Source: Rubellimicrobium arenae (GTDB lineage: Bacteria; Pseudomonadota; Alphaproteobacteria; Rhodobacterales; Rhodobacteraceae). From it: DNA of 64,000 nt. The notes beneath the pieces were generated by a model. It saw only the letters and a program-made list of their open reading frames with translations. It made no database searches and had not been told where the DNA came from. Shown here piece by piece: positions 2,025 through 34,144 of this stretch. The DNA lies in NCBI RefSeq assembly GCF_017916275.1, contig NZ_JAFMST010000013.1, positions 1 through 64,000 of the forward strand, given 5' to 3'. How positions within the stretch are numbered: position 1 is the first letter of the stretch; every line of letters begins with the position of its first letter. The translations under genes were made by a program, and so were the position numbers.

Positions 2025-2780
2025 TCAGGGCCGAACGGCGGGCGCCTCCATCTCGAGTCCCGCAGCGCGGGACATGAGGAACAGTTCCAGGGCGATGTAC
2101 TCGGGCGAGCCCGATGCGAAGGGCTCGGCCCGGACGCCTGCCATGCAGTTGCCGAACCGTCGGTGGAGACCGCCCATCTCCTCCCATTGCAGCCGGTACT
2201 GTGGGTAGCCGGTGGGGTGGGCCTCGGGAATCGTGGCGGCGGCCAGATGCCCTCCGGCATGGTCGTCGTGGCAGTTCGCGCAGGCGAGGTTCAGCTGGCC
2301 CATGCGCGTTTCGAACAGCACCCGGCCGGTGTCGCGCCAAGGATCGAGGCGCGGGTCGCTGTCGGGCGTGATCGGCACGCCTTTCGACTGCCGTGAGACA
2401 AAGGCGGCAAGGGCCAGAAGGGGACGGCTCTCGCGGTCCCACGCCCCGGCGTTCTGGTGCCGCGTCCGGCAGAGCCCGATCCGGCCCGCAAGGTCCACCG
2501 GCGCGCCGCTGTCCTCGTCCCATGCGGGATAGCGTGCGGCGACACCGGCCATGCTTTGCTCCGCCCCACCGTGGCAGTCCGCGCAGGACAGGCCGGCCTC
2601 GCCCTCGGGCGTATCCCAAAGGGCGGCGCCCTCGGCCACCCAGAGCATCCCGGGATTCGACATCTCGTCATCCTGCATCGCACGAAGGTCGGGCGACATC
2701 ATCTCATAGCCCGTCCGCCGCTCCTCGGCCGTGGCGACCGTGGCCAGGGCGCCGGTCAGGAGCGCGGCGCGCAGCATCAT
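2025..2780 (-). CDS. soxA: SoxA, diheme c-type cytochrome of the SoxAX complex
   Basis: SoxAX joins sulfur compounds oxidatively to the SoxY carrier cysteine in the periplasm. The 251-residue product has a short signal peptide (about 1-18) and two CxxCH heme sites, CADCH at 66-70 and CANCH at 167-171. Cys104 (GLCRTRHQN) fits the axial ligand of heme 1. Cys212 (RFGNCMAGVRAEP) fits the active-site cysteine ligand of heme 2, which carries a persulfide in characterised SoxA proteins. It is the last gene of the operon, and its ATG overlaps the soxZ stop (ATGA, 2777-2780). All expected heme ligands are present, so it looks functional. Confidence 0.93.
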   Translation of the reverse strand: MMLRAALLTGALATVATAEERRTGYEMMSPDLRAMQDDEMSNPGMLWVAEGAALWDTPEGEAGLSCADCHGGAEQSMAGVAARYPAWDEDSGAPVDLAGRIGLCRTRHQNAGAWDRESRPLLALAAFVSRQSKGVPITPDSDPRLDPWRDTGRVLFETRMGQLNLACANCHDDHAGGHLAAATIPEAHPTGYPQYRLQWEEMGGLHRRFGNCMAGVRAEPFASGSPEYIALELFLMSRAAGLEMEAPAVRP

Positions 2781-3094
2781 CCCACGGTCAGCGTGCGACG
2801 CTCGCTGTGCTCTTCTCCGGTCTCGTCGGTCCAGAGCAACTCCACCTCGGCGGTTTCGACGGCACGAAGGAAGAAACCCAGGAAGGGGTTGGCCGCGATG
2901 GCCGGGAAGATCTCGGCGCGGAACACCTCCGTGCCGCCATAGAGGCAGCGAAAGTCGTGGATGATGTTGCGCGGCACGAGTTTGCCGTCCGCGCCGGTGC
3001 GGAAGCCGGTCTCCATCGGGTGAGAGATCAGGATCTTGACCTCGACGATTTCGCCGGGCGCGGCCGTTTCGGGGATGTTGACCATCGCTACCAT
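2777..3094 (-). CDS. soxZ: SoxZ, sulfur carrier complex subunit
   Basis: The 105-residue protein has no signal peptide, which is normal because SoxZ is exported in complex with SoxY. It carries family landmarks such as ISHPMETGFRTGADGKLVPRN near residues 23-43 and a C-terminal immunoglobulin-like strand region ending in ERRTLTVG. SoxYZ is the heterodimer that shuttles covalently bound sulfur between enzymes of the Sox pathway. The gene starts one base after the soxY stop and overlaps soxA by four bases, so translation is probably coupled. Confidence 0.93.
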   Translation of the reverse strand: MVAMVNIPETAAPGEIVEVKILISHPMETGFRTGADGKLVPRNIIHDFRCLYGGTEVFRAEIFPAIAANPFLGFFLRAVETAEVELLWTDETGEEHSERRTLTVG

Positions 3095-3095
3095 G

Positions 3096-3548
3096 TCAGG
3101 TCTCCGCGCAGGCCGGAGCCGTGACGATGACGTCCGTCACGGCGGACCACAGAGAACCGTCGCTCATCCGCGCGATGGCATGGACGTTCTGCGAGCCATT
3201 GAGGCGGATACGCGTCTCGGCTGCGGCCCGTCCCGAGGCGGGCGTGAAGCGGAAGCGGATGACGTCGGGCAGGGGATTCAGCTCGTTGAAGATGGCTACC
3301 TCCTCGACGAACTCGTCCTCGGTCATCGGGCTCTCGACCGACACCTTCAAGGGGACCGCGTTGCCGTTCTCGACCAGCAGCGGCACGTTGAGGGTCACGC
3401 GCCCTTCGGTCACGGCAGCGCCGCCGGTGAAGGCGTCGAGCGCGGCCCGCATCGTGTCGGGCGTGGCGGACGCCGGTGAGAGGCGGAGCGCAAGGGGCCC
3501 GGCAAGGACCAGGGCCATCGCGGTCCGTCGGGTCGGACGTGGAGTCAT
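3096..3548 (-). CDS. soxY: SoxY sulfur carrier with non-canonical C-terminal arm
   Basis: This 150-residue protein has a Tat-like N-terminus (PTRRTAMALVLAGPLAL) and the SoxY body, including LVENGNAVPL and ESPMTEDEFVEEVAIF. In the Sox pathway the substrate is bound to a cysteine in a flexible C-terminal GGCGG arm. Here the tail reads VTAPACAET, so a single cysteine (Cys147) lies four residues from the end but all flanking glycines are missing. I read the stop (TGA, 3096-3098) directly on the strand and found no frameshift. Its ATG overlaps the soxX stop. It is either a diverged carrier matched to different partners or one with a less mobile arm. Confidence 0.88.
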   Translation of the reverse strand: MTPRPTRRTAMALVLAGPLALRLSPASATPDTMRAALDAFTGGAAVTEGRVTLNVPLLVENGNAVPLKVSVESPMTEDEFVEEVAIFNELNPLPDVIRFRFTPASGRAAAETRIRLNGSQNVHAIARMSDGSLWSAVTDVIVTAPACAET

Positions 3549-3964
3549 TCCGAACCTCCTTTCAGGCTGGCGAGGTAGGCCACGACGTCCTCGACCTCCT
3601 GCGCAGTGAGAATCGTAGTGCCCTGCCAGCGGGCGCCCACCCGGGCGAGCCCGTCGAGGCTGTGGAACGGCGGCATGATCGTGTCGGGATTGACCGAACG
3701 GCTATCCACCACGCGCAGGCGCAGTTCGGGCAGGCTCAGCCGATCACCCACGCCGGTGAGGTCGGGGCCAAGGTCTCCCTGGAAGGGGACCTCGGCGAAG
3801 GGGCCGGCATGGCAGAGAACGCAAAGGCTCTTCTGCTGATCGAGCACGATGGCATGGCCCCGCGAAGGGTCACCCGGCACATCGGTGAGCGGATCAGGCA
3901 GGCCCTGGGCGCCCAAGGGGCCCGCGATGGCGATGGCAGCCGCACAGGACAGGGCGCGGCCCAT
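3545..3964 (-). CDS. soxX: SoxX, monoheme c-type cytochrome of SoxAX
   Basis: The 139-residue protein has a signal peptide (about 1-19) and one heme site, CVLCH at 48-52. GDLGPDLTGVG follows, and then IMPPF, in which Met97 is the likely axial ligand. The C-terminal ILTAQEVEDVVAYLASL is characteristic of SoxX. It passes electrons from SoxA to the respiratory chain during sulfur conjugation to SoxY. The gene starts one base beyond the FCSD stop and overlaps the soxY start (ATGA). The start at 3964 is chosen because it gives a clean signal peptide immediately after the upstream stop. Confidence 0.92.
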   Translation of the reverse strand: MGRALSCAAAIAIAGPLGAQGLPDPLTDVPGDPSRGHAIVLDQQKSLCVLCHAGPFAEVPFQGDLGPDLTGVGDRLSLPELRLRVVDSRSVNPDTIMPPFHSLDGLARVGARWQGTTILTAQEVEDVVAYLASLKGGSE

Positions 3965-3965
3965 G

Positions 3966-5225
3966 TCAGCCGAAGACGCTGCCCGTGATCGTCGCGTACC
4001 AGGCCCGGGCATAGTCGGCCTCGGTCGCGCGGACGTCGGGCGGCGCGCCGACGGGACTGGTGCCGCCCGCGCTTTCCACCTCGGCGAGCGCCCCCTCGAC
4101 GGGCTGATAGACCCCGGCCACGGTGAAGGCATAGTCCGGCGCGGCGAGGCTGTAGCAGGTGTTGATGAGCTTCGGGGCGCCGGGCGTCTCGCCGCGCAGG
4201 AGCATGTCGATGGCCTGGGCGGCAACCAAGGCCTGGGCATTGGCCGAAAAGGCGGACTTGGGCATGGCCCCGGCCAGGCAGGCGTCGCCGATGACGTGGA
4301 TGCCGGGCACCAAGGCGGATTCGAAGGTCTCGGGGCTGACCGGGCACCAGCCGGTCGCGTCGGCCACCCCGGACGCATCGGCGATGCCGCCCGCGCGCTG
4401 GGGCGGAATGACATTGGCCACGGCGACCTGATGCTCGGCAAAGTCGGTCATCAGCGTCAGGGTGGCCGGGTCGACGCCCACGACCTTGCCGCCCATCGAC
4501 ACGGGCACCCATTCGACCAGGCCGGGATAGAGCGCGGCCCAGGCTTCCTCGAAAAGGGGGCGCTTGGAGAAGGCGTCCTTGGCATCGAGGATCAGCACCT
4601 TGGACCGGGGCTTGGTCGACTTCAGATAATGGGCGATGAGGCTCGCCCTTTCATAGGGACCGGGCGGGCAGCGGAAGGGGTTCTCGGGAACGGCAATGGC
4701 GACCACGCCCCCGTCCTCCATGGCTTCGAGCTGGCGCCGCAGGAGCTCGGTCTGCGCCCCGGCCTTCCAGGCGTGGGGCATGACCTCGGACGCCGCTTCG
4801 TCGTAGCCGGGCAGCGCGTCATAGCGCAGATCGATGCCCGGCGCGAGGATCAGCCGGTCATAGGGTAGGGAACCGTCGGAGAGCCGGACCTGGCTCGCGT
4901 CGGTGTCGATGCCCTGGGCCTCGCCCCGGACCACCGTCACGCCCGCGGCGCTCAGGCCGTCGTAGCCGAAGGCGATGGACTCGATGGGGTTGAGCCCCGC
5001 CAGCACGGTGTTGCTGAAGGGGCAGGTCCAGTAGGTGGGCTGGCGCTCGACCAGTGTCACCTCGTGGCCCAGGGAGGCAAGGGCGCGCGCCGCCGTGGCG
5101 CCGCCGAACCCGCCCCCGACCACGACGACCCGTCCCCTTCCTTGTGCGTGCGCCGCGCGGTTCAGGAAGGGGAGGGCGAGCGCGGTGCCGCCCGTGGCCA
5201 CAAGGGTCCGCCGCGTCAACCTCAT
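3966..5225 (-). CDS. Flavocytochrome c sulfide dehydrogenase flavoprotein (FccB/SoxF type)
   Basis: This 419-residue, twin-arginine-signalled flavoprotein (RLTRRTLVATGG...AHAQG) has the FAD dinucleotide fold VVVVGGGFGG at about 33-42. Cys68 in TYWTCPFSN corresponds to the cysteine that binds FAD covalently in FccB. Cys186 (NPFRCPPGP) and Cys357 (INTCYSL) match the redox-active disulfide that attacks sulfide. VIGDACLAGAMPKSAFSAN is the C-terminal FAD-binding segment. The family oxidises sulfide to sulfur or polysulfide in the periplasm and passes electrons to a cytochrome c. The monoheme cytochrome gene directly upstream, four bases away, is its likely partner. Confidence 0.9.
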   Translation of the reverse strand: MRLTRRTLVATGGTALALPFLNRAAHAQGRGRVVVVGGGFGGATAARALASLGHEVTLVERQPTYWTCPFSNTVLAGLNPIESIAFGYDGLSAAGVTVVRGEAQGIDTDASQVRLSDGSLPYDRLILAPGIDLRYDALPGYDEAASEVMPHAWKAGAQTELLRRQLEAMEDGGVVAIAVPENPFRCPPGPYERASLIAHYLKSTKPRSKVLILDAKDAFSKRPLFEEAWAALYPGLVEWVPVSMGGKVVGVDPATLTLMTDFAEHQVAVANVIPPQRAGGIADASGVADATGWCPVSPETFESALVPGIHVIGDACLAGAMPKSAFSANAQALVAAQAIDMLLRGETPGAPKLINTCYSLAAPDYAFTVAGVYQPVEGALAEVESAGGTSPVGAPPDVRATEADYARAWYATITGSVFG

Positions 5226-5229
5226 GGGC

Positions 5230-5508
5230 TCACTCCTTGTCCGCATGATCGGCGATCCATTCGGCGATGGCTTGGGACTCCTCCGGCGTGAAACCGCGCG
5301 CGATGCGGTCCATGATCGTCGCGTCACGTCGGCCGTCCCGGTAATCCGCAAGGGCGGCAGAGATCTCCTCGGCCGAAAAAGCGCCCAGCGGCATGGTGGC
5401 CTCGGCATCGAGGGCATGGCAGCCGGTGCAGGAGAGAGCGCCAGGCGGCGCGCCCTGGGCCGACGCCGATGTGGCCAAGCCGGCGAGGACGATGACGAGT
5501 GCTCGCAT
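5230..5508 (-). CDS. Small monoheme cytochrome c, likely FCSD partner
   Basis: The 92-residue product has a signal peptide (about 1-18), the heme site CTGCH at 27-31 and, near residue 65, TIMDRI, whose Met is a plausible axial ligand. It is a minimal class I cytochrome c resembling the FccA/SoxE heme subunit. ATG 5508 is preferred over the longer frame because it has GGAG upstream and begins the signal peptide. It sits between the molybdenum hydroxylase and the FCSD flavoprotein, so it may accept electrons from either enzyme; sequence alone cannot decide. Confidence 0.82.
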   Translation of the reverse strand: MRALVIVLAGLATSASAQGAPPGALSCTGCHALDAEATMPLGAFSAEEISAALADYRDGRRDATIMDRIARGFTPEESQAIAEWIADHADKE

Positions 5509-5563
5509 CCGGGTCCGCTCCTTGGAAGGAGGGCTGGCGGCCGGAGCTGCCAGCCGCACGGCC

Positions 5564-7726
5564 TCAGCTCCTGAGGCTGTTGCTGTCCAGCGGTAGCTGG
5601 CGGATCCGCTTGCCCGTCGCGGCGAAGACCGCGTTGAGGACCGCAGGCGCCGCCACGAAGATCGTGGGCTCGCCCACGCCGCCCCAGAAGCCCCCCGAGG
5701 GTCGGATCAGGCTCTCGACGGCCGGCATCTCCCACATGGTGATGACGGGGTAGGTGTCGTAGTTCTCCTGCTGGATCCGCCCGCCCTCCACGGTGATCTC
5801 TCCGTGGAGCGCAGCGCTCAGGCCCATGGCGAAGGACCCCTCGATCTGTGCCTCGATCTGCTGCGGGTTGACGACATTGCCGGGATCGGTGGCCGCGACG
5901 ATGCGATGGATGGTGAGCTGCCCTCGATCATCCACCGACACCTCGGCGGCCGCGGCGACGTAGCTGCCGTAGCCCATGTGCTGGCAGAGCCCCCGGAACA
6001 CCCCGTCGGGCGGCGGCGTGTCCCAGCCGATCCCCTCGGCCGCCGCCTCGAGCACCGCAAGGTGGCGCGGGTGGTTCGCCATGTGCGCCCGGCGGAATTC
6101 GAGCGGATCGCGCCCGGCGGCATGGGCCAGCTCGTCCATGAAGGTTTCGAGGTAGAAGGCGTTCTGGTTGTTGTTCACGCCCCGCCAGAAACCCGGCCGG
6201 ACCGGCGGGTTCCGCATGGCGTGGTCGATGAGCAGGTTCGGCACGGTGTAGCCGAACTGCCCTTCCTCGCCGTCCGGGTTCAGGCCCTGGAAGGTGAAGG
6301 GGTCCTTGCCCTCCTCCAGCATGAAGGGCATCAGGTTCGCCAGGATCGACTGGCCCGAGATCCGCATGTGCAGGCCGGTCAGGTTTCCCTGGTCGTCGAG
6401 CGCCCCCACCATCCGCGCCTTGGTGATCGGATGGAAGGTGCCGTGGATCATGTCCTCCTCGCGGCTCCAGATGAGCTTGACCGGCGTGCCGGGCATCTCC
6501 TTGGCGATGAGCACCGCCTGCCGCGTGTATTCATGCGAGCTGGCCCGGCGGCCGAAGCCGCCGCCAAGGTGAACCCGGTAGACCTCGCATTGCGGGATCT
6601 CCAGGCCCGAGGCTTCGGAAGCGACGGCCAGCTCGGCCTCGGCATCCTGGGTGGCGACCCAGACCTCGCAGCGGTCCGCCGTGACCAGGGCCGTCGCGTT
6701 CATCGGCTCCATGGTCGCGTGGTGCTGCCAGGGGAAGTAGTACTCGGCTTCCACGACGTTCGCCGCGTTCTGGACGGCGGCCGACACGTCTCCGGCCTGC
6801 GTGCCGACGAAGGCGTCCTCGGATCGCAGCCCCTCGTCCAGCATGGCATGGATGTCGGCCATGGAAAGGTTGGCGTGCTCGCTCTCGGTCCATTCGATCT
6901 GGAGGGCGTCAAGGGCGGTCTTGGCGCGCCACCACGTATCGGCGACCACCGCCACGGCGTCGTTGTCGATCTGAAGCACCTTCTGAACGCCCGGCATGCC
7001 CATGACGGCCTCGGCGTCGAAACTCGCCACCGTGGACCCCATGACGGGCGCCTGCCGGATCGCCGCGCTCACCATGCCGGGAAGCTTCATGTCGATGGCA
7101 TAGATCTGGCTGCCGTCGAGCTTGCCCATGGTGTCGAGCCGCTTCACCGGCTGCCCGGCGATCGTCCAGGTGGACGGGTCCTTGAGCTGGATCTCGGCCG
7201 GAACCGCGACCTGCGCGGCCTCTGCGGCAAGCTCGCCATAGCGCAGGGTCTGGCCATCCGGCCCCGAGATGACGCCCTTGGACACGGTGAGCGTGGCAGG
7301 ATCGACCCCCCAGCGATTCGCGGCGGCCTGGAGCAGCATGGCGCGGGCGGCGGCGCCTCCTTCCCGGACATACTGCTGCGAGGCGCGGATGCCCTGGCTG
7401 CCGTAGGTGCCGAAGGCCCCCCAGACCCGGTCGCGCGCGACGTTCTGGCCCGGCGTCGGGTACTCCCAGGTGACCTTCTCCCAATCCGCGTCGAGCTCCT
7501 CGGCCACGAGCTGCGCGAGGCCGGTCAGGGTCCCCTGGCCCATCTCGATCCGAGCGACGCGGATCACCACGGTGTCGTCGGGATGGATCACGACCCAGGC
7601 ATTCAGCTCAGTGGTGGCGGTTGCCGCGTCCTGCGCGGCGGCGGGGATACGGAAACCCAGTGCAAAGCCGCCAGCGGCGACGCTCGCGAGGAAGCCGCGG
7701 CGTGTCAGCGAAAAGTGTCGTGTCAT
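5564..7726 (-). CDS. Periplasmic molybdenum hydroxylase, Mo-binding subunit (IorB-like)
   Basis: This 720-residue subunit belongs to the xanthine dehydrogenase/aldehyde oxidoreductase superfamily in its isoquinoline 1-oxidoreductase-like branch. A Tat signal (LTRRGFLASVAAGGFALG) opens the protein. MGQGTLTGLAQLVAEEL, HLGGGFGRRASS and MNPPVRPGFWRGV-type segments contact the cofactor. GGVGEPTIF near residue 685 carries the Glu expected to activate the Mo-bound water. Such enzymes hydroxylate aldehydes or N-heterocycles and pass electrons through 2Fe-2S clusters. The substrate here is unknown. Linkage to sox genes suggests a sulfur-containing substrate, which is inference only. Confidence 0.88.
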   Translation of the reverse strand: MTRHFSLTRRGFLASVAAGGFALGFRIPAAAQDAATATTELNAWVVIHPDDTVVIRVARIEMGQGTLTGLAQLVAEELDADWEKVTWEYPTPGQNVARDRVWGAFGTYGSQGIRASQQYVREGGAAARAMLLQAAANRWGVDPATLTVSKGVISGPDGQTLRYGELAAEAAQVAVPAEIQLKDPSTWTIAGQPVKRLDTMGKLDGSQIYAIDMKLPGMVSAAIRQAPVMGSTVASFDAEAVMGMPGVQKVLQIDNDAVAVVADTWWRAKTALDALQIEWTESEHANLSMADIHAMLDEGLRSEDAFVGTQAGDVSAAVQNAANVVEAEYYFPWQHHATMEPMNATALVTADRCEVWVATQDAEAELAVASEASGLEIPQCEVYRVHLGGGFGRRASSHEYTRQAVLIAKEMPGTPVKLIWSREEDMIHGTFHPITKARMVGALDDQGNLTGLHMRISGQSILANLMPFMLEEGKDPFTFQGLNPDGEEGQFGYTVPNLLIDHAMRNPPVRPGFWRGVNNNQNAFYLETFMDELAHAAGRDPLEFRRAHMANHPRHLAVLEAAAEGIGWDTPPPDGVFRGLCQHMGYGSYVAAAAEVSVDDRGQLTIHRIVAATDPGNVVNPQQIEAQIEGSFAMGLSAALHGEITVEGGRIQQENYDTYPVITMWEMPAVESLIRPSGGFWGGVGEPTIFVAAPAVLNAVFAATGKRIRQLPLDSNSLRS

Positions 7727-7738
7727 GCTTCGCCTCCC

Positions 7739-8191
7739 TCACAGCAATTCGGAGGCGCGCTTGATGCCCGCGCGGATCCGGTTGTACGTGCCACAGCGGC
7801 AGATGTTGGTCATCTCGGCCGCGATGTCCTCGTCCGTCGGGTTCGGGTTGTTCGCGAGAAGCGCCGCCGCCGCCATGATCTGGCCTGACTGGCAGTAGCC
7901 GCATTGGGGCACGTCGACCTCGAGCCAGGCCTGCTGGACCGGATGCGTCCGGTCGGGCGATAAGCCCTCGATGGTCGTGATCTCGTCCTCGGGCGTGATG
8001 TCCTGAAGCTGGACCTGGCAGGAGCGGGTCGCCATGCCCCCGATATGCACGGTGCAGGCGCCGCAGACGGCGATGCCGCAGCCGTATTTCGTGCCGGTCA
8101 GGCCGATCTGTTCCCGCAGCACCCAAAGAAGCGGCGTCTCTGGTTCCGCATCCACGTCATGTACGGTGCCATTCACAGTGATCCGTGGCAT
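7739..8191 (-). CDS. 2Fe-2S subunit of the molybdenum hydroxylase (IorA/CoxS-like)
   Basis: The 150-residue protein has the two cluster-binding sets of this family: Cys38, 43, 46 and 58 (plant-ferredoxin fold) and Cys97, 100, 131 and 133 (four-helix domain, CGYC and CRC motifs). It lacks its own signal peptide, as usual for subunits carried through the Tat system by the large subunit. The start is set at ATG 8191, with GGAGG just upstream; the frame stays open further upstream without family similarity. It is the first gene of the eight-gene operon, twelve bases before the Mo subunit. Confidence 0.9.
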
Positions 8192-8496: not shown

Positions 8497-9462
8497 TCAG
8501 CCCGAAGCGCCGACCGTGGCGGTTCCGCTTTTCGTCCATGCGACCGGCGAGGGGCGGCGCTCGATGATCTCGGCCACCACCGCCGCGGCGATCTCGCGCG
8601 GGCTCCGGGCCATGATGGGCAGGCCGATAGGCGCCCGGAGCCGCGCAAGGTCTGACGGCTGCAGCCCTGCCTCCAGCAGCCGGGCGCGGCGAGCCTCCAG
8701 CCTGCGGCGCGACCCCAGGACACCCACATACCCGGCCGAGGACGACAGGGCCGCCAGCAGGGCCGCCTGGTCGAGATCCGCATCGTGGGTTGCAATGGCC
8801 ACGGCAGTCCAGGGATCCGGCTCTAGCCGACGAAGGGCCACGTCAGGAGGATCGGTCCTGTAGTCGAGCGGAAGCGGCGCGGGGCCGGGCGGGCCGTTGG
8901 GCCTGACCAGGGTCACCTGCCATCCTTGCAAGAGGCCCCCGGCCGCGATGGCCAGCGCAAAGGGGTCGCTGCCCACGACAACGAGCCTTTGTGCCGGCTC
9001 GTGCAGGCGATTGACGATCCAGTTGCCCTCGACAGGCGCGTCCGGCAACTGGACCTGCCGCTGGTCGCCGCGGCTCAGGTATCGCAGGACTCGTCGGTCG
9101 CGGGCGGCCTCGACCAGGGCCAGCATCGCCGGGTCATCGGGCCGCACGGGTTCGAGCAGCAGGTCGATCCGGCCGCCGCAGGGCAGGCGTATATCGAAGA
9201 ACGGGCTGCCATGGCCGTAAGCGATCCGGCGGGGCTCCCAGGTCCTGAGGATGTCGCGCGCGTGCCGTGCGACATCGCTCTCCACGCAGCCGCCCGAAAG
9301 GAAGCCCCAGGCGCTTCCGTCGGTGACCACCATCTGCGAACCGACCGCCCGGGGGCCGCCATCGGCCGCGACGATCGTCACCAACGCGAATGGGCTGGCC
9401 GAATCCACGAGGGACGAGATGATGGGCAGGACGTCATCGACGTCGTCGAGCGGCCAATCCAT
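8497..9462 (-). CDS. XdhC/CoxI family molybdenum-hydroxylase maturation factor
   Basis: The 321-residue protein has the two parts of the family. The N-terminal domain has [22 protein letters not shown] and the cysteine motif [10 protein letters not shown]. The C-terminal Rossmann domain has [26 protein letters not shown] and [11 protein letters not shown]. XdhC-type proteins bind the molybdenum cofactor and insert its sulfurated form into xanthine-dehydrogenase-like enzymes. Its position upstream of the Mo-hydroxylase genes on the same strand supports that role. The start at ATG 9462 (MDWPLDDV) is preferred because upstream residues resemble no family member. Confidence 0.85.
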
Positions 9463-20604: not shown

Positions 20605-22110
20605 ATGATCCCATTGCGGGTCACGGACGTGTCAAAGTCTTACGGAGGTGTCCAGGCGCTGAAGCCGACCTCGTTCGATGTGCGGGCTGGCGAGATCCAT
20701 GCGTTGCTGGGGGAAAACGGTGCCGGGAAATCGACCCTGATCCGCATCATGTCGGGCCTCATCGCACCCGACAGCGGCGCAATCGAGATCGACGGGGAGA
20801 TCGTACATTTCCGCTCTCCGCGTGATGCCACGCGACATGGCGTGGTGACGGTTCACCAGGAGCTTCTGCTGTTCCCGGACCTGAGCATCGCCGAGAACAT
20901 CTGCATGGCCGATGACGCGGGTCCGTTCGGCCACATCGATCGCGATGCCCAGGTCAGGAAGGCGCGCCAGCTTCTGGCGGAGCTCGACTCGGCCGATCTC
21001 GATCCCGAGATGCCGGTGCGCCACCTGTCCGTCGCACAGCGCCAGCGCGTCGAGATCGCCCGTGCCCTTGGACGGCAGGCCAAGGTGCTGATCATGGACG
21101 AGCCGACCGCCTCGCTGGCCGACGCCGACGTGGCGCGCCTTGTCGCCATCGTCCAGCGCCTGCGCGGGCGCGGCGTGGGTATCGTCTATGTCAGCCACAA
21201 GTTGTCCGAGGTGCGACTGCTGGCCGATCGCGTGACCGTCCTCCGGGACGGCCGCTTCGTCGATACCCGCGAGGCCAAGGGCATGACCGAGGCCGACATG
21301 ATCGCCCTGATGGTCGGCCGCAGCATCTCCGAACTGTATCCCAAGGGCGAATCGCGGATCGGGGCCGAAGTGCTCCGGGTCGATGGTCTGACCCTCGCGC
21401 CGCGTGTGCGGAACATCTCCTTCACCTTGCGCGCGGGCGAGATCCTTGGCTTGGCGGGCCTTGTCGGGGCTGGTCGAACCGAAGTGGCCCGCCTTCTGTT
21501 CGGGCTGGACCGGCCCAGCAGCGGCCGGATCTTCCTGGACGGACGAGAGGTGAGCGTGTCCTCTCCGGAGGCCGCGGTGGCGCTGGGGATCGCCTACGTC
21601 CCCGAGGATCGTGGGGCTCAGGGCCTGGTCAAGACGATGCCGGTGTCCGCCAACGTGACCATGGCCTCCTTGGGTCAACTCCTTCGGGGTCCGTTCCTGT
21701 CGCGAAGCACCGAATATGCCGCGGGCGCGGAGGCCATACGCCGGCTTGGCATCCGTGCGCCGCGCGGGCCCCAGCACCTTGCGGGCAAGCTGTCGGGAGG
21801 GAACCAGCAGAAGGTGGTCATCGCCAAATGGCTTCGCACGGCGCCTCGCGTCCTTATCCTCGACGAACCCACGCGGGGGGTCGACGTCGGCGCCAAGGCC
21901 GAGATCCATGCCCTCATGGGTGACCTGACGCGACAAGGCCTGGCGATCCTGATGATCTCGAGCGAGCTTCCCGAAGTCCTGGGCATGAGCGACCGCGTCC
22001 TCGTGGTGAGCCAGGGCCGCATGACCGGCCTGTTCGAGCGCGCGGACGCCACGCCCGAACGGGTCGGCGCGGCCATGGTCGCCGAGATGCAGGAGGCGAC
22101 TGCGTCATGA
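20605..22110 (+). CDS. Sugar/autoinducer ABC transporter ATP-binding protein (RbsA/LsrA/RhaT-like)
   Basis: The 501-residue protein holds two fused ABC domains. The first has Walker A GENGAGKST (about 37-45), the signature region LSVAQRQRVEIARAL and Walker B LIMDEPTASL. The second has a degenerate Walker A (GLVGAGRTE) with intact LSGGNQQKVVIAKWL and LILDEPTRGVDVG. A catalytic N-half and a weaker C-half are typical of carbohydrate CUT2 importers. It overlaps the next gene by four bases. It energises import through the two permeases encoded downstream. Confidence 0.93.
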   Translation: MIPLRVTDVSKSYGGVQALKPTSFDVRAGEIHALLGENGAGKSTLIRIMSGLIAPDSGAIEIDGEIVHFRSPRDATRHGVVTVHQELLLFPDLSIAENICMADDAGPFGHIDRDAQVRKARQLLAELDSADLDPEMPVRHLSVAQRQRVEIARALGRQAKVLIMDEPTASLADADVARLVAIVQRLRGRGVGIVYVSHKLSEVRLLADRVTVLRDGRFVDTREAKGMTEADMIALMVGRSISELYPKGESRIGAEVLRVDGLTLAPRVRNISFTLRAGEILGLAGLVGAGRTEVARLLFGLDRPSSGRIFLDGREVSVSSPEAAVALGIAYVPEDRGAQGLVKTMPVSANVTMASLGQLLRGPFLSRSTEYAAGAEAIRRLGIRAPRGPQHLAGKLSGGNQQKVVIAKWLRTAPRVLILDEPTRGVDVGAKAEIHALMGDLTRQGLAILMISSELPEVLGMSDRVLVVSQGRMTGLFERADATPERVGAAMVAEMQEATAS

Positions 22111-23081
22111 CAGCCATACCCCATCGATCGTCGCAGGGGCGCATTGGTCGGGCGCTGGTCGGGCACGGCCAGGTTCTGGTCGTGCTGGGCGCCATCATCG
22201 CCCTGTTCATCGGCGTGAGCTTCGTGAACGCGCGGTTCCTCAGTCCCGCCAACCTGACGACGATCTTCTCGGGCAACGCCTATATCGCTGTTGCGGCCAT
22301 CGGGATGACGATGGTCATCATCACCGGCCACATCGATGTCTCCGTCGGCGCGCTGATCGGGGTCCTGGCCACGGTGGCCGGCACGCTTGCCGTTGCGGGC
22401 TGGCCGATGTGGCTCGTCTGGTTGGCTCCCCTCGTGATCGGGGTGGCGGTGAACGCCGCGGCGGGCTGGCTGGTCGCCTATGCCCACATCCCATCCATCG
22501 TGCTGACGCTGGGCCTTCTTTCCATTCTGAAAGGCGGCCTGATCGTGGTGACCGGGGGCGAGTGGATCACCGACCTGCCGCCCGGGTTCTTCCTGGCGCA
22601 AAGGGACGTGTTCGGGCTGCCGCTGCCCCTTGTGGTCATGACGGTACTGACGCTCGCCGCTGCATGGTGGATGGCGCATTTCCGCTTCGGCCGCACGATC
22701 TACGCCGTTGGAAGCAATCTCGAGGCCGCTCGGGCCATCGGCATCTCCGTGGAACGAACCACCGTGGGTGTGTTCGCCTTGCATGGGCTGTTCGCGGGCA
22801 TCTCGGCCGTGCTGTTCGCCACGCAGCTGACCACGATCCAGTCCACCGTGCCCCCGAACCTCGAACTGGTCATCATCACCGCCTGCGTGATCGGTGGCGT
22901 CTCGATCCTGGGCGGGGTCGGGACGGTGATCGGTGCGGCGCTGGCCACCATCTTCTTCGCCACGATCACCTCGGCGATGATCTTCACCAACGTATCGGCC
23001 TACTGGCTGAGGGCGGTGATCGGGGGGCTGATCCTGATCACCGTGCTGGCCGACGTCGCGCGCCGAAGGGGGCAAGCATGA
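22107..23081 (+). CDS. CUT2 ABC transporter permease 1 (LsrC/RhaP-like)
   Basis: The 324-residue inner-membrane protein has about ten helices and the CUT2 permease signature ITGHIDVSVGALIGVLATVAG near the middle. The late motifs IGGVSILGGVGTVIGA contact the ATPase. Its start overlaps the ATPase stop and its stop overlaps the next permease start (ATGA at 23078-23081). Two different permeases in one operon point to the Lsr/Rha branch rather than the single-permease Rbs branch. Confidence 0.9.
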   Translation: MTAIPHRSSQGRIGRALVGHGQVLVVLGAIIALFIGVSFVNARFLSPANLTTIFSGNAYIAVAAIGMTMVIITGHIDVSVGALIGVLATVAGTLAVAGWPMWLVWLAPLVIGVAVNAAAGWLVAYAHIPSIVLTLGLLSILKGGLIVVTGGEWITDLPPGFFLAQRDVFGLPLPLVVMTVLTLAAAWWMAHFRFGRTIYAVGSNLEAARAIGISVERTTVGVFALHGLFAGISAVLFATQLTTIQSTVPPNLELVIITACVIGGVSILGGVGTVIGAALATIFFATITSAMIFTNVSAYWLRAVIGGLILITVLADVARRRGQA

Positions 23082-24037
23082 GTCCGACGTCCGGGCGCCT
23101 TAATCTTCTCCTCAGCCACGAGGCGATGCTGGCCATCCTGCTGGCCGTCACGCTCCTGATCCTGTCGCTCCTGTCGGACAGCTTCTTCAGCACGGCCAAC
23201 CTGCTGAACCAGGTGCGCCTGACGGCAGAGATCGGACTGATCACACTCGCGATGACCCTGGTCATCATCACGGGTGGAATCGATCTGTCCGTCGGTTCGA
23301 TCGCCGGGCTGTCGGCGATCATGCTGGGCCTCCTGTGGCAGAAGGCAGGGCTGCCCCTCCCACTGGCCGCGGTGACCTCGCTGGGCATCGCGGTGCTGGC
23401 GGGCCTGGGCAACGGCGTGATTATCACGCGCTTCCGCGTACCGCCCCTGATCGCGACTCTGGCCACCATGGCCTTCTACCGCGGCCTGGCCGAAGGCTTC
23501 AGCCAGAGCCGATCCGTCCGGGGCTACCCGGAGGGATTCTACATCCTTGGCCAAGGCGAGGTCCTCGGCTTGCCCACGCAGGTCTGGATCCTCATCGTGG
23601 CGGCGGTCCTGGTCGGCACGGCGCTGTCGGCAACCGCCTTCGGCCGGACGGTCTTCGCAATCGGCGCCAATGAAACGGCCGCCCGCTTCTCGAGCCTGCC
23701 GGTCGACCGCGTGAAGCTGATCGTCTACGGGCTGTCCGGTTTCATGTCAGGCCTGTCCGGTCTCCTGCTTGTGTCGCGGGTGACCACCACGCGGTCCGAC
23801 ATGGGGATGGGGTGGGAGCTGGACGCGATCACCGCCGTCGTCCTGGGCGGCGCCAGCATCTTCGGCGGCCGGGGAACGGTGCTGGGCAGCGTGCTGGCCC
23901 TGGCGCTGATCCAGTGCCTCAAGAGCGGCCTGTCCCTGGCCGGGGTCAAGGCGGACGGGACCATCGTGCTGATCGGCCTGTTCCTGATCGGCGCCGTCCT
24001 GCTCGGAAATCTGATGGACCGCATCGCGGCCCGTTGA
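23078..24037 (+). CDS. CUT2 ABC transporter permease 2 (LsrD/RhaQ-like)
   Basis: This is a 319-residue multi-helix protein with IITGGIDLSVGSIAGLSAIMLG and VLGGASIFGGRGTVLGSVLALALIQ, the counterparts of the motifs in the first permease. It should pair with that protein to form a heterodimeric channel. The start overlaps the preceding stop by four bases. The binding-protein gene follows after 61 bases with its own strong ribosome binding site. Confidence 0.9.
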   Translation: MSPTSGRLNLLLSHEAMLAILLAVTLLILSLLSDSFFSTANLLNQVRLTAEIGLITLAMTLVIITGGIDLSVGSIAGLSAIMLGLLWQKAGLPLPLAAVTSLGIAVLAGLGNGVIITRFRVPPLIATLATMAFYRGLAEGFSQSRSVRGYPEGFYILGQGEVLGLPTQVWILIVAAVLVGTALSATAFGRTVFAIGANETAARFSSLPVDRVKLIVYGLSGFMSGLSGLLLVSRVTTTRSDMGMGWELDAITAVVLGGASIFGGRGTVLGSVLALALIQCLKSGLSLAGVKADGTIVLIGLFLIGAVLLGNLMDRIAAR

Positions 24038-24098
24038 ACCCGTCTCGCGCAAGCCGGCGACAGACCGGGAAGCGCGGATCAACAGAGGAGGAGACTGA

Positions 24099-25205
24099 AT
24101 GAAACCCGTGTTCCACATGGCGGTCCTGGCCGGCCTGATGTCGGCCAGCAGCGCCCTTGCTCAATCCGCCTGGACGGGCGGTGACGACCTGCCGACCAAC
24201 CCCTTGCCCTGCGACGGAAGCCCCGCCGCTCCGGCGGCGCTGCCCTACGACGGAGCCACGCCCGCGAACGCCCCGGACCGCGCGGGCCAGCCGATCACGG
24301 TGGTGGACGTGCCCAAGCTGGTGGGGATCGGCTATTTCAACGCGACCTCCAAGGGCATCGCCGAGGCGGCGGCCGAACTCGGCAACATGACCGTCACGAC
24401 CGACGGACCGACCGAGGCCAACATCGACGACCAGATCACGATCCTCGACAACTACATCACCCAGGGCGTGGACGGCATCCTGTTCGCCGCGAACGACCCG
24501 GTTGCCATCGCTCCGGTCCTCAGGAAGGCCCTGGAGGCGGGGATCAACGTCGTGGGCTACGACGCCAACGCCGAGCCCGACGCGCGTCAGTGGTTCGTGA
24601 ACCAGGCCGAGTTCAATGGCGTCGCCAAGTCGCTGATCGACAGCCTCGTGGCCGAGACCGGCCCCGAAGGCAAGTTCGCCATCGTGACCTCCACATTCAC
24701 CACGCCGAACCAGGCCCGCTGGATCGCCGAGATGTCCGCCTACGCGGCCCAGTGCTATCCGCAACTCGAGTGGCTGGAAACGGTCGAGGCGCAGGAGGAC
24801 AACATCCTGTCCTTCAACCAGGCCAACACGCTCCTCACCAAGTACGGCGAGGACATGAACGGCATCATCGGCATGACCTCGGTCGCCACGCCCGCCGCCG
24901 CCGACGCCGTCACGCAGTCCGGCAACTGCGGCAAGGTCGCCGTTGTCGGCTTGGCCACGCCGAACGCGATGAAGCCCTATCTCGCGTCCGGCTGCGTCAA
25001 GTCGGCCGTCCTGTGGAATCCCGTCGATCTGGGCTATGCAGCGGCGCAGGTGCTTCGGGCGGCGGCGGACGGGACCCTGACGCCGGGGGACACGTCGGTC
25101 CAGGCGGGCCGCTTGGGCGAACTTCAGGTGATCAACGGCTCCGAGATCCTGCTGGGTTCCCCGTTCGTCTTCACGCAGGAGAATGCCGGCGAGTTCGACT
25201 TCTGA
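24099..25205 (+). CDS. CUT2 ABC transporter substrate-binding protein (LsrB/RhaS-like)
   Basis: The 368-residue periplasmic protein has a signal peptide (about 1-22, ending ALAQ). The type I binding fold starts at KLVGIGYFNATSKGIAEAA, followed by DGPTEANIDDQITILDNYITQGVDGILFAAND and later VVGYDANAEPDARQWFVNQ. These segments resemble the AI-2-binding LsrB and rhamnose-binding RhaS proteins. There is an unusual 60-residue Pro/Ala-rich stretch before the fold. AGGAGGAG lies seven bases before the ATG, consistent with higher expression than the permeases. The ligand cannot be fixed from sequence because no sugar kinase or lsrK/lsrR gene is nearby. Confidence 0.88.
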   Translation: MKPVFHMAVLAGLMSASSALAQSAWTGGDDLPTNPLPCDGSPAAPAALPYDGATPANAPDRAGQPITVVDVPKLVGIGYFNATSKGIAEAAAELGNMTVTTDGPTEANIDDQITILDNYITQGVDGILFAANDPVAIAPVLRKALEAGINVVGYDANAEPDARQWFVNQAEFNGVAKSLIDSLVAETGPEGKFAIVTSTFTTPNQARWIAEMSAYAAQCYPQLEWLETVEAQEDNILSFNQANTLLTKYGEDMNGIIGMTSVATPAAADAVTQSGNCGKVAVVGLATPNAMKPYLASGCVKSAVLWNPVDLGYAAAQVLRAAADGTLTPGDTSVQAGRLGELQVINGSEILLGSPFVFTQENAGEFDF

Positions 25206-28627: not shown

Positions 28628-30346
28628 ATGTTCCCGATAACCCTTCGCGCCGCGCTCCTGTGTTCGGCGATCGCTGCCGCCCCTGCGCTGGCCCATGACG
28701 GCGAGCGGCACGGAGAAGCGCCTCGTCGGACCGAGCTTTTCGCGCCTGGAGTTCAGCACGCCGATGGGGACGCTGCCGTGCCGCGGGGCGAGCCCATGCT
28801 CGTGTCCGGCTTGGGCGACTATGGCTTCGCGATCGCAACATCCCGCCCCGAGGCGCAGGCCTGGTTCGACCAGGGTCTCGGACACCTGTGGGGCTTCAAC
28901 CATGCCGAGGCGGTGCGCGCCTTCCGCATGGCCCAGGCGCAGGACCCGTCCTGTGCCATGTGCTTCTGGGGCGAGGCCCATGCGCTCGGGCCCAACATCA
29001 ATGACATCATGCACGCCGAGGCCGAGCCCCGCGCCTGGGAGGCGGCGACTCGCGCGGTCGAACTGGCACGCACGCCGCTTGAACGCGGGTTGGCCGGGGC
29101 TCTGCTGGCCCGTTACGCGGAGCCCGGAACCGGGGATCGCACGGCCCTGAACCAAGCCTTCGCCGAAGCGATGGCCCGTGTCGCCGGGGACTTCCCAGCA
29201 GATGCCAATGTCCAGGCCTTCGCGGCCGAGGCGGCCATGAACCTCCGCCCCTGGGACTACTGGGAGCCGGGCGGGACTACCCCCAACGAGGTCGGGGCCG
29301 AGGTGCTCACCCGGCTTGAGGCGGCCCTGGCCCTTGCCCCCGACCATCCCGGTGCGCTGCACCTTTACATCCATGCAGTCGAGGCTTCGGCCAACCCGGC
29401 GCGGGGCGAGGCGGCTGCGGATCGGCTCGCGGCGCTGGACCTCGCCGCCGGGCATCTCGCCCACATGCCTTCCCACATCTACAACCGCATCGGCCGCTAC
29501 GCCGACGCGATCAAGGCCAACCGCGCCGCCATCGCTGCGGACGAGGCGTTCCTGGCGCGGGCGGGCGAGGCGACGAGCACGCTTTACCGCTTTGGCTACG
29601 TGCCCCACAACGTTCACTTCTTGCTCGTCGCCGCCCAGTCCGCCGGGCTGCGGACCGAAGCCGTCGGAGCCGCCGAGCGTCTTGCCGCGATCACCTCGGA
29701 CGAGGTCTCGGCCCAGCTTGCCTGGGTTCAGGCGATCCGCACCGCGCCGTTCACGGTCCACGCGCAGATGAGCGATGCCGAAACGATCCTTGCCTTGCCA
29801 GAGCCCGGTGCCGAGTTCCCGCTCCTGCGGGGCTTCCGCCACTACGCGCGGGGCCTGGCCCTTGTCCGTGAAGGCGACCTCGCCCGTGCAAAGGGCGAGC
29901 GTGAGGCTCTCGACAAGCTGGTGACGGAAGGCGACTTCTCGGCCGTGGAGGCGCAGTACTACCCGGCGCGGACTCTTCTTGGGCTCGCGGGCCGGATCGT
30001 CGCCGCTCGCATTGCCGAGGCCGAAGGGGACGGCGACGCGGCGGTCGCGCTCCTCGGTGAGGCTGTGACGATGGAGGAGGGCATTCCCTACATGGAGCCG
30101 CCCTACTGGTACGCCCCCGTCAACCGCACCCTTGGCGCGGTTCTGCTGGAGCAAGGCCGGCCCGTGGAGGCGAAGGCCGCCTTCGAGGCGGCTCTGGCCA
30201 AGGCGCCCCGCGACGCTTGGGCCCTCTGGGGGCTGTGGCAGGCCGAAACGCTGATCGGGGACCGATCCCGCGCCGATGCGGCCCGGCAGGCGTTCGAGGA
30301 CGCCTGGCTCGGCGGCCCGGAGCGGCCCTCAGCCGACAGGCTCTGA
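28628..30346 (+). CDS. Exported TPR-repeat protein
   Basis: The 572-residue product has a signal peptide (about 1-22, ending ALAHD). Tetratricopeptide-like helix pairs follow throughout, beginning ARPEAQAWFDQGLGHLWGFNHAEAVRAFRMAQAQDPSCAMCFWGEA and ending with KAAFEAALAKAPRDAWALWGL. The CAMCFWGEA segment and HMPSHIYNRIGRY are characteristic of a periplasmic TPR family of unknown function. AGGAGA lies nine bases before the start. The last 18 bases overlap the 3' end of the convergent regulator gene. Confidence 0.8.
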   Translation: MFPITLRAALLCSAIAAAPALAHDGERHGEAPRRTELFAPGVQHADGDAAVPRGEPMLVSGLGDYGFAIATSRPEAQAWFDQGLGHLWGFNHAEAVRAFRMAQAQDPSCAMCFWGEAHALGPNINDIMHAEAEPRAWEAATRAVELARTPLERGLAGALLARYAEPGTGDRTALNQAFAEAMARVAGDFPADANVQAFAAEAAMNLRPWDYWEPGGTTPNEVGAEVLTRLEAALALAPDHPGALHLYIHAVEASANPARGEAAADRLAALDLAAGHLAHMPSHIYNRIGRYADAIKANRAAIAADEAFLARAGEATSTLYRFGYVPHNVHFLLVAAQSAGLRTEAVGAAERLAAITSDEVSAQLAWVQAIRTAPFTVHAQMSDAETILALPEPGAEFPLLRGFRHYARGLALVREGDLARAKGEREALDKLVTEGDFSAVEAQYYPARTLLGLAGRIVAARIAEAEGDGDAAVALLGEAVTMEEGIPYMEPPYWYAPVNRTLGAVLLEQGRPVEAKAAFEAALAKAPRDAWALWGLWQAETLIGDRSRADAARQAFEDAWLGGPERPSADRL

Positions 30347-33300: not shown

Positions 33301-34144
33301 GGCGCTGCTCGACGGGGGATGTCGAGGCGTGTGGCTCGGCGGGCGTTGCCGGGGTCGTTCCCCCGGGTGGCTTCGCCTGGCCCGAGACCGCTTCGCTCGG
33401 GCTATGTTCTGCGGGAGCCATCCTCCCGGCCTTGATGTCCCGCCACAGGGCCACCGTCGCCTCTTCGGGAGCAGCCGACAGTTCATCGCGCAGTCGGTCG
33501 GCATGGGCCCGAAAGGCAGCCAGGGCAGCATTGCGCCGGCCTTGGTGGGCGGCAGCCGACATTAGGCGCTGCAAGGCGGCTTCGTCGAAGGGGTCGAGAG
33601 CGAGCTGTCGCCGCGCAAGGGCCTCGACTTCGTCGAAGCGCCTCGCCTCCGTCAGCAGCGTAGCCAACTGGCTGAACCGCTCCGCCAGGAGGCGCCGGAC
33701 TCGGGCACGCTCGGTCAGCAGCCAGGTGTCGAGTTCGGGGCTTGTGCCCTCGAAACCTTCCAGAAGGTCGCCACCGGCCTGCCGAACCACTTCGGCCAGG
33801 GCCTGACCGTCCCGAGGGTTGACCGCCTCGATCGCGGCGAGATCGGACTGAAGTGCGGCGCTGTTCAGCAGGATGGTACGCGAACCGGCCTGGATGGGCT
33901 GCGGATCGGCGCCATCCAATGCGGCCCTCAGACGGTACAAGGCCTGCCTGAGCGAGGTCCGGGCCTGCTCGTCGCTTCGGTCGGGCCAGAAAAGGCCTGC
34001 CACTCGGTCCCGTGGATGGGCGCGGTCAGGAGAGAGCGCCAGCCACGCGAGCAGAAACGCCGAATGCCGGGTCGGAAAGGTGATCGGGCGATCGTCGAGC
34101 CTTGCCTCGAACGTGCCCAGAAGCCGAAGTCTCAGACCGGCCAT
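30329..34144 (-). CDS. SARP-like regulator with BTAD, degenerate cyclase-like, AAA ATPase and TPR domains
   Basis: This is a 1271-residue multidomain regulator. Residues 1-95 form an OmpR-type winged helix (LRLLGTFEARLDDRPI...). Residues 100-240 are a bacterial transcriptional activation domain (DEVEALARRQLALDPFDEAALQRLM). Residues 278-415 look like a class III nucleotide cyclase fold (RRLAVLHLSAPG...AGVHAGASL), but both metal-binding Asp positions are replaced (Ser289 and TGE near 332-334), so catalysis is unlikely. Residues 445-700 are an AAA ATPase with Walker A GEAGVGKS (482-489) and Walker B VVLVVEDAHWLD (604-615). TPR-like repeats fill about 790-1250. It probably binds DNA and uses ATP-driven switching; the target is unknown. 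Confidence 0.85.
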   Translation of the reverse strand: MAGLRLRLLGTFEARLDDRPITFPTRHSAFLLAWLALSPDRAHPRDRVAGLFWPDRSDEQARTSLRQALYRLRAALDGADPQPIQAGSRTILLNSAALQSDLAAIEAVNPRDGQALAEVVRQAGGDLLEGFEGTSPELDTWLLTERARVRRLLAERFSQLATLLTEARRFDEVEALARRQLALDPFDEAALQRLMSAAAHQGRRNAALAAFRAHADRLRDELSAAPEEATVALWRDIKAGRMAPAEHSPSEAVSGQAKPPGGTTPATPAEPHASTSPVEQRRLAVLHLSAPGVGAHLTGLDPEEATLAAAAVVRHLEKIVRRHKPCSLKTSTGELTACFALEERPALSATRAALEASAATGAWAGVHAGASLAGGSDEMSLLGLIARRLAETGSGAVLLCENARAECDGYLLLESGPSLMLPGAARPVPTWHATGATGARNSWQARACRGLSPFVGRGAELDTLRQALGRSEAGATAVLLSGEAGVGKSRLIHEFLSGPEVLGHRVLETGAAAFQTDAGHSALGTLLRCWTGLDPAAAPDLAWAALRSRLTDLGAPAALDPPLRMLLDLPVRDDVWSSLAGGQKRRRVVQALGTLLELETQARPVVLVVEDAHWLDAESAPVLDDLLMGCRAAGVLMLVSARPDYRPSWSQLSFARVLRLEGLGPEDTARLLEGISPERKPTTHFAAQLHGRTGGVPLFVEEVMHDLRRPPERLAGDTLAEDAQIPASLRGLLGSRIDRLPAGQRHLLQAASIIGPIVSETLLRGLADIPSEAMEEALDGLASAELLYRVRSHPEREFAFKHALTQEAAYQSLLRSRRQELHRRLLRLLEDGQTEAPVEDLARHAHFGAVWDKAARYGTRAGERAMARSAHPAARRHFERSLEAIGRLPQDDDTRRMAVDLRIRLRPVLMLVGDYGRVLETLDAAEREAEALRDLRRLVEIRTHIAFFRATDGSFDQGLAASLLAIDGARRLGEPILLAEATLARGELLRRRGDYAGAILALEEHLDVWSGANKLHRGINIGTRSVFARGHLATCYAYLGRRNEAREVISAARAIADETGRPVDLQFAFLHDGIVTELEGRVAESIPLFEAALDVARMTELPFFEDWILVELGEALLALGDNRRALSLLEAACARPAQRVVPQFLALARVALGKALVLAGRTEAAKAVLGQVLDYARSARHRQLEQMALRRSAMAIVSQDPTHALRLLDQAVAVAEASGLTLGLAKSLEVQTAVLRDLGRHDEAAALGTRAAAVRQSLRLPAWEGRSEPVG

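Follow-up and report, generated by a model that had tools for sequence, protein, structure and literature searches.

At the start of a contig of Rubellimicrobium arenae (NZ_JAFMST010000013.1), the carrier genes soxX, soxY, soxZ and soxA of the sulfur-oxidizing Sox system lie in one gene cluster with a molybdenum (Mo) hydroxylase and a flavocytochrome c sulfide dehydrogenase (FCSD). The window, meaning the whole stretch of 64,000 nucleotides that was analysed, opens a 124,914-base contig in a genome of 4.55 Mb that is 99.6% complete. We tentatively favour, with slightly less than even confidence, the reading that the cluster encodes a SoxB-less periplasmic Sox variant in which a Mo hydroxylase of the xanthine oxidase family replaces SoxB/SoxCD and acts on a SoxY-bound adduct. 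Held more cautiously still is the idea of a second Sox class, in which the SoxY arm would hand a covalently tethered organosulfur substrate to the Mo hydroxylase. This would be the first case of a carrier-bound substrate in that enzyme family, and the class would be recognisable by an Ala in place of the Gly that precedes the arm Cys. The gene content, its recurrence, the correlation between the SoxY arm and the partner enzyme, and the conservation of the catalytic residues are observed directly.

Eight genes with overlaps or short gaps had been described on the minus strand in an earlier note on this DNA, and both their coordinates and their order were borne out by the reading frames and by Pfam and NCBIfam searches. 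They are transcribed in the order [2Fe-2S] subunit, Mo subunit, cytochrome c, FCSD, SoxX, SoxY, SoxZ, SoxA. Together with one upstream gene, the cluster consists of the following:

8497..9459, minus strand: XdhC/CoxI-type molybdenum-cofactor chaperone (PF13478, 1.7e-29; PF02625, 3.5e-17); a start at 9570 is possible
7739..8191, minus strand: [2Fe-2S] subunit of the Mo hydroxylase (PF01799, 1.5e-28; PF00111, 4.8e-08)
5564..7726, minus strand: Mo-binding subunit, 720 aa, with the twin-arginine signal SLTRRGFL (PF02738 and PF20256, MoCoBD_1 and MoCoBD_2)
5230..5508, minus strand: small mono-heme cytochrome c with a CTGCH motif; ATG at 5508 behind AAGGAG, a start at 5559 being possible
3966..5225, minus strand: FCSD flavoprotein with a twin-arginine signal (PF21706, 9.8e-48; PF09242, 5.1e-24; solved FCSD 5n1t_A, 1.9e-132)
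3545..3964, minus strand: SoxX (TIGR04485, 82.7 bits, cut-off 61)
3096..3548, minus strand: SoxY variant with a PACAET arm (AACIE type) and a twin-arginine signal (TIGR04487 passed)
2777..3094, minus strand: SoxZ (TIGR04490, 84.8 bits, cut-off 76)
2025..2780, minus strand: SoxA with two CxxCH motifs and the conserved Cys (TIGR04484, 221.3 bits, cut-off 110; 1h31_A, 1.2e-53)

SoxZ and SoxA overlap by 4 bases (ATGA), as do SoxX and SoxY, and the remaining neighbours overlap or are separated by short gaps. Judging from this spacing, the eight genes probably form one transcript. The promoter scan gave no promoter-like site on the operon strand of the region, and the terminator scan gave 1 terminator-like site there against 2.8 expected by chance. 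The genes had earlier been called fused, which is apt in the sense of one operon; no gene fusion is present. Omitted from the earlier gene list was the XdhC-type chaperone gene, which lies 305 bases upstream of the [2Fe-2S] gene on the same strand. Such a gene is rare elsewhere, being linked in only 5 of the 80 named loci introduced below.

The Mo hydroxylase has the MoCoBD domains, the [2Fe-2S] subunit and the fold of the xanthine oxidase family, together with the Glu of a GVGEP motif, which we take to be the catalytic Glu of the family. In the NCBIfam search of the Mo subunit, every matched model (XDH, PaoC, CODH, 4-hydroxybenzoyl-CoA reductase and others) remained far under its cut-off. Inspection by eye showed no signal peptide on the [2Fe-2S] subunit, which is therefore presumed to be exported together with the Mo subunit. 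The flavoprotein carries the FCSD domains and Cys pair, and may have sulfide dehydrogenase activity. For the small cytochrome c, the Pfam search gave no match. The conserved Cys of SoxA aligns with a Cys of 1h31 that is presumably a heme ligand there.

The SoxY of the window is of an unusual type. It passes the model TIGR04487, ‘SoxY-related AACIE arm protein’ (176.4 bits, cut-off 172), and fails the true-SoxY model TIGR04488 (100.4 bits, cut-off 125), with an arm that reads PACAET, not the canonical GGCGG. Canonical features of the system are kept: SoxXA with its hemes and the SoxA Cys, and a SoxYZ carrier with a C-terminal Cys. The AACIE name is given in public records to the same gene on plasmids of Neorhizobium galegae and Methylobacterium sp. 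NMS14P. These plasmids share the gene set of the window cluster, with the Mo frame of the N. galegae record broken into two parts. The genome has a single SoxY match. Its best match to the SoxB model reached 134.6 bits against a cut-off of 550, and this protein scores top with 5'-nucleotidase models, yet under the cut-off of every model. Three proteins with the sulfite oxidase fold (PF00174) are encoded, one MsrP above its cut-off and two short proteins, none of them near the cut-offs for SoxC or SorA. The claim that the system lacks soxB and soxCD, and the check for soxB and soxC elsewhere in the genome that went with it, thus came out as expected for SoxB and SoxC, which were not found; SoxD was not searched for. 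A duplicated canonical Sox system was rejected for this genome, given the one SoxY match and the failure to find SoxB, SoxC or SorA.

The pairing of Mo hydroxylase and Sox genes recurs widely. A species-genome collection was scanned with an alignment of 27 Mo subunits, and the best 80 of 590 confirmed stretches were kept as named loci; the 590 stretches had been picked up by two peptide patterns derived from close relatives, which biases this set towards close kin. Record titles of the named loci cover Alpha-, Beta- and Gammaproteobacteria, and the nearest named relative of the Mo subunit among the matches listed, at 89% identity, comes from an uncultured Paracoccus (L100). The flanks hold SoxX in 70 loci, SoxY in 69, SoxZ in 68 and SoxA in 63, FCSD in 39 and the small cytochrome in 31, and SoxB in none. 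The positive counts are lower bounds, because several loci are cut by contig ends; for four such loci, an Ala-Cys-arm SoxY lies on another contig of the same genome, in three of the four cases above the TIGR04487 cut-off. Conserved co-occurrence, which the earlier note had proposed to look for, is therefore found. In three Methylobacterium loci (L130, L132 and L140), SoxX, SoxY and SoxZ are present and SoxA was not found in the fetched flank.

The commonest gene order is FeS-Mo-SoxX-SoxY-SoxZ-SoxA (29 loci), followed by the same order with the cytochrome c and FCSD genes inserted after the Mo gene (17 loci). The full FeS-Mo-SoxXYZA core was present in 61 loci, of which 29 have no FCSD on either strand; at least 6 kb of sequence follows the Mo gene in 25 of these 29. 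From the flank counts, the core consists of FeS, Mo, SoxX, SoxY, SoxZ and SoxA, and FCSD with its cytochrome is optional. FCSD was rejected as a core member on these numbers, and the proposal that it is the obligate next step of the pathway did not survive. Clustering of the flanks revealed no other neighbour shared as widely as the core, and no further conserved gene, such as a transporter or a releasing enzyme, that would name the substrate. It did give a cytochrome-type protein common to 17 loci, a heterogeneous mixture of ABC-ATPases in 13 loci, and 52 minus-strand frames in 41 loci, which were judged, from position only, to run antisense over core genes.

A similar picture was obtained from a class sample of 289 genomes. 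A SoxY-like match was present in 69 of them, in 16 above the TIGR04487 cut-off, and only one of these 16 (G122) has SoxB. For 22 nearly complete Mo subunits that share 57% identity or more with that of the window (itself included), SoxY was close on the same contig in 17, as counted by eye; of the other five, two are split from SoxY by contig ends, one (G066) has SoxX and SoxA only, and two lie apart. Because Sox carrier and Mo hydroxylase form a conserved unit without adjacent SoxB, the suggestion that the Mo hydroxylase stands in place of SoxB/SoxCD is a fair working reading.

The residue before the Cys of the SoxY arm follows the partner enzyme. SoxY frames of the class sample were typed by the amino acid preceding their last Cys and by the genes within 6 kb, which covered 73 of 87 SoxY matches (the window and the 13 weakest or unfetched matches, at 6e-15 or weaker, were left out). 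Gly-Cys arms (34 frames) had SoxB nearby in 26 cases and the Mo hydroxylase in none, whereas Ala-Cys arms (33 frames) had the Mo hydroxylase nearby in 26 cases and SoxB in none (Fisher p ~3e-12 for arm against Mo, with L196 excluded and relatedness ignored). L196 was assigned to the Ala-Cys arms by eye, as its GAC arm is followed by a tail of ~30 residues; the SoxY of the window would add one more Ala-Cys case with Mo. In two of the seven Ala frames without Mo (L013 and L063), the contig breaks in or beside FCSD and the Mo gene is at the end of another contig. The remaining frames are an SGC arm beside a Mo hydroxylase (L198) and five without a Cys near the end. Among the named loci, an Ala-Cys arm was present in 68 of the 69 SoxY frames, the last one (L161) being cut by a contig end. 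In a quick SoxA tree of 64 rows, whose root is unsure, the SoxA proteins linked to GGCGG arms or SoxB group together except for the very distant L086 and L056. The recurrence and this arm-partner pattern led us to reject chance adjacency of the Mo hydroxylase and Sox genes.

The pairing with such SoxY proteins holds for more distant Mo hydroxylases too (33-49% identity), and the link therefore extends past the close subfamily of the window. Examples are G125 (38%), G229 (38%, with an SGC arm), and G082 and G197 (33-34%, divergently transcribed). In G078 (L196, 2354-14546), two tandem FeS-Mo pairs, ~40% identical, lie beside SoxYZ, a cytochrome, FCSD, SoxX and SoxA. In three other loci, L201 (G191), L202 (G286) and L203 (G075), SoxXYZA comes with GACS arms; their genomes gave no SoxB match at the threshold applied, and the fetched sequence contains no Mo hydroxylase. 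A divergent cytochrome-FCSD pair accompanies the genes at L202 and L203. The three loci perhaps represent a further kind of SoxB-less Sox unit.

The catalytic residues are conserved across the aligned rows. After removal of short or weak rows (e.g. SoxA below 200 aa or 100 bits) and, for SoxA, SoxX, SoxY and FCSD, of rows from GGC-arm loci, both CxxCH motifs and the Cys were present in 89 of 89 SoxA rows, CxxCH and Met in 95 of 95 SoxX rows, the Cys in 95 of 97 SoxY rows, and the two Cys in 52 of 52 FCSD rows. The small cytochrome c has CxxCH in all 51 rows, and Glu686 of the Mo subunit is found in 110 of 110, sox-free rows included. This conservation suggests that SoxAX has been retained as an enzyme, beyond a role as electron carrier.

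In the canonical model, as outlined in an excerpt of PMC5336275, SoxAX conjugates thiosulfate to SoxY, SoxB takes off the sulfonate and SoxCD oxidizes the sulfane; by the same excerpt, none of these reactions had been directly demonstrated when the paper appeared in 2017. Given that SoxB and SoxCD are absent, that a Mo hydroxylase is present and that the arm differs, the most economical view is that this enzyme now visits the arm, and we infer that it acts on, or next to, a SoxY-bound substrate. SoxAX would load the single SoxY Cys with a sulfur compound, and the altered arm, with Ala replacing Gly before the Cys, would present the adduct to the Mo hydroxylase, which would hydroxylate or dehydrogenate its organic part. 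The [2Fe-2S] subunit may then pass the electrons on to SoxX/SoxA or the small cytochrome c, and FCSD, where present, could oxidize released sulfane sulfur or sulfide. Inferred in this scheme are the nature of the substrate, its being bound to SoxY while the Mo enzyme acts, the path of the electrons and the sequence of events. Enzymes of the xanthine oxidase family mostly hydroxylate carbon, for which reason the adduct should bear an oxidizable carbon group, which points to organic sulfur. Rather than thiosulfate, the most likely natural substrate would be an organic thiol or thio-compound whose C-H is activated or aldehyde-like.

The predicted structure of the Mo subunit (mean predicted local distance difference test score, pLDDT, 81) is closest to the membrane-bound aldehyde dehydrogenase of Gluconobacter oxydans (8gy3_C; template modelling (TM) score 0.85, 27% identity), with the next solved structures at TM ~0.6. 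This likeness agrees with a different explanation, in which the two halves of the cluster serve one organosulfur pathway in parallel: some other reaction would free an aldehyde together with sulfide or a thiol, the Mo hydroxylase would oxidize the free aldehyde in the manner of the Gluconobacter enzyme, and FCSD and SoxAX-SoxYZ would clear the sulfur, the genes being grouped since both products arise together and not through contact between the enzymes. The closeness of the cluster FCSD to solved FCSDs and the existence of sox-free copies of the Mo enzyme fit it as well. It would, however, make the most direct sulfide enzyme dispensable, as FCSD is missing from nearly half of the full-core loci, it finds no conserved nearby gene for the releasing step, and it leaves the change of the SoxY arm with the Mo partner unexplained. 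We regard it as unlikely, although as the strongest of the alternatives.

Several findings count against action of the Mo hydroxylase on a SoxY-bound adduct. To our knowledge, no enzyme of the xanthine oxidase family acts on a protein-bound substrate. The arm change could also stem from common descent of one Sox lineage and not from fit to the Mo enzyme. Moreover, 11 of 110 Mo subunits were classed as lacking sox neighbours. These are scattered in the tree, so that repeated sox losses are likely, and separate clades of sox-linked and sox-free Mo subunits were rejected on the same grounds. Four of the 11 are not plain cases: L136 and L099 are truncated where their contigs stop, whereas for L098 and L173 sox genes with Ala-Cys arms were located on a different contig of the same genome. 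In the genome of L173, these are SoxXYZA with a SACVDG arm (L187).

The other seven (L051, L052, L054, L122, L137, L143 and L155) are plain sox-free loci. L051, L052 and L054 are plasmid-only records (Sinorhizobium meliloti LMB1, Methylosinus trichosporium OB3b and Agrobacterium), whose host genomes were not searched, and the record of L155 stops 0.8 kb past the Mo gene. Among the SoxY matches examined, the genome of L137 has none, that of L122 has a DGC-armed one, and those of L143 and L155 have GGC-armed ones. In G066 (L090, 8759-12916), the order is FeS-Mo-SoxX-SoxA, with SoxYZ lacking from its usual place after SoxX; neither a SoxY match nor SoxYZ was found in this genome, a single contig rated 100% complete. 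Since SoxYZ is lacking beside Mo in the sox-free loci and in G066, the Mo enzyme can be kept without the carrier. Mo and Sox genes also lie apart in G091 and G127, and at L157 a SoxYZ pair 3.4 kb off looks separate, yet is counted among the 69. On the OB3b plasmid (L052, 4251-12763), the sox-free Mo relative adjoins an arylsulfatase, a multiheme cytochrome, a nucleotidyltransferase and an XdhC-type gene, and the plasmid carries a separate soxZ-soxB cluster (L180).

SoxB itself is not always missing from the genome. Among 50 of the 80 named loci, all sox-linked and some from incomplete metagenome-assembled genomes (MAGs), SoxB was encoded elsewhere in 22 genomes (21 above the cut-off, one in two pieces), and no SoxB match was found at the threshold used in the other 28, among them those of Ancylobacter aquaticus DSM 101, Roseateles depolymerans DSM 11813, Azorhizobium oxalatiphilum and Duganella radicis. 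The nearest relative, L100, is one of the carriers, so absence of SoxB is no rule even among close kin. The earlier interpretation as a whole was thus right about a conserved unit without neighbouring SoxB, and has to be qualified for SoxB elsewhere in the genome and for the optional FCSD. The presence of SoxB in these 22 genomes, and in 7 of 33 class-sample genomes with an Ala-type arm (that of the window included), would suit a degraded or truncated operon for thiosulfate or sulfide oxidation that lies beside an unrelated Mo hydroxylase and is aided where needed by SoxB encoded elsewhere; SoxXYZA and FCSD are indeed recognisable as Sox parts. Against this, the gene order is common to three classes of proteobacteria, the catalytic residues are conserved and the arm is specific to its partner, and we consider such decay very improbable.

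The XdhC-type gene bears on a third alternative, in which SoxAX-SoxYZ, with FCSD where present, would carry a periplasmic persulfide and restore the essential sulfido ligand of the exported Mo hydroxylase once it is lost. Enzymes of the xanthine oxidase family need an equatorial sulfur ligand, which in Rhodobacter capsulatus is placed by NifS4 on the XdhC-held cofactor before insertion (excerpt of PMC2997495), and a cluster without SoxB and SoxCD would suffice for this service, as full sulfur oxidation is not required. By a rough count, XdhC lies beside the Mo gene in three of the seven plainly sox-free loci (L052, L054 and L143) and beside five sox-linked Mo genes (window, L076, L153, L171 and L179), which speaks for this alternative. 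However, the window holds XdhC as well as Sox, and related Mo enzymes live without Sox. According to the same excerpt of PMC2997495, bacteria insert only the sulfurated cofactor, have no later regulation based on sulfuration, and bury the centre deeply. Ligand repair by the Sox proteins is therefore improbable in our view.

Compared with the canonical Sox system of Paracoccus pantotrophus (SoxXA, SoxYZ, SoxB and SoxCD), the cluster of the window shares SoxX, SoxA, SoxY and SoxZ with the conserved Cys, heme and Met residues, and also an FCSD relative, SoxF in the canonical system. The canonical system has SoxB, SoxC and a GGCGG arm, whereas the window has a PACAET arm and neither SoxB nor SoxC was found in its genome. 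The TIGR04487 family, whose cut-off is exceeded by the window SoxY, is known here by its model name only; the SoxY variant is already named by NCBIfam. The aldehyde dehydrogenase of Gluconobacter shares the Mo subunit fold and, like the window cluster, is made up of FeS, Mo and cytochrome c components. We know of no Sox partners of that enzyme.

A Sox carrier tied to a periplasmic dehydrogenase of carbon compounds is also found in the quinoprotein-dehydrogenase-associated SoxYZ-like carrier TIGR04557 (PP_2677) with SoxH, as covered in excerpts of PMC12997753 and PMC11237559. In that system, SoxY is fused to SoxZ and partnered by a pyrroloquinoline quinone (PQQ) enzyme, and a SoxH-like protein and a rhodanese are named as companions; the cluster of the window retains SoxXA and has a Mo hydroxylase as partner instead. 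The excerpt of PMC12997753 links SoxYZ-like carriers with PQQ alcohol dehydrogenases. That of PMC11237559 ties SoxY clades with altered arms to genes for PQQ dehydrogenase, dimethyl sulfoxide reductase and tetrathionate reductase, and suggests functions beyond thiosulfate oxidation; searching its main text for ‘molyb’ gave no hit. The system of the window fits this broader trend, in which periplasmic dehydrogenases have adopted Sox carriers, and stands apart by its retained SoxXA and its partner. No report of a Mo hydroxylase-Sox pairing was found in the open-access literature searched, a scope outside which many Sox papers lie.

SoxXYZA genes are commonly taken to indicate thiosulfate oxidation. 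If the variant does something else, heterotrophs that carry it (Duganella, Roseateles, Henriciella, Methylobacterium, Bradyrhizobium and Roseomonas) may be miscounted as thiosulfate oxidizers, and a widespread periplasmic route for a sulfur compound may have been overlooked. The residue before the arm Cys would offer a simple way to separate both Sox classes in genome and metagenome data.

Two of the MAG contigs among the loci (L146 and L173) are titled Bordetella parapertussis, a label that looks doubtful. Elsewhere in the window, ABC transporter genes (ATPase, permease and periplasmic binding protein) at 20605-25205 are apparently unrelated to the cluster, and a large regulator-like protein with BTAD, AAA and TPR domains is encoded on the minus strand at 30329-34144.

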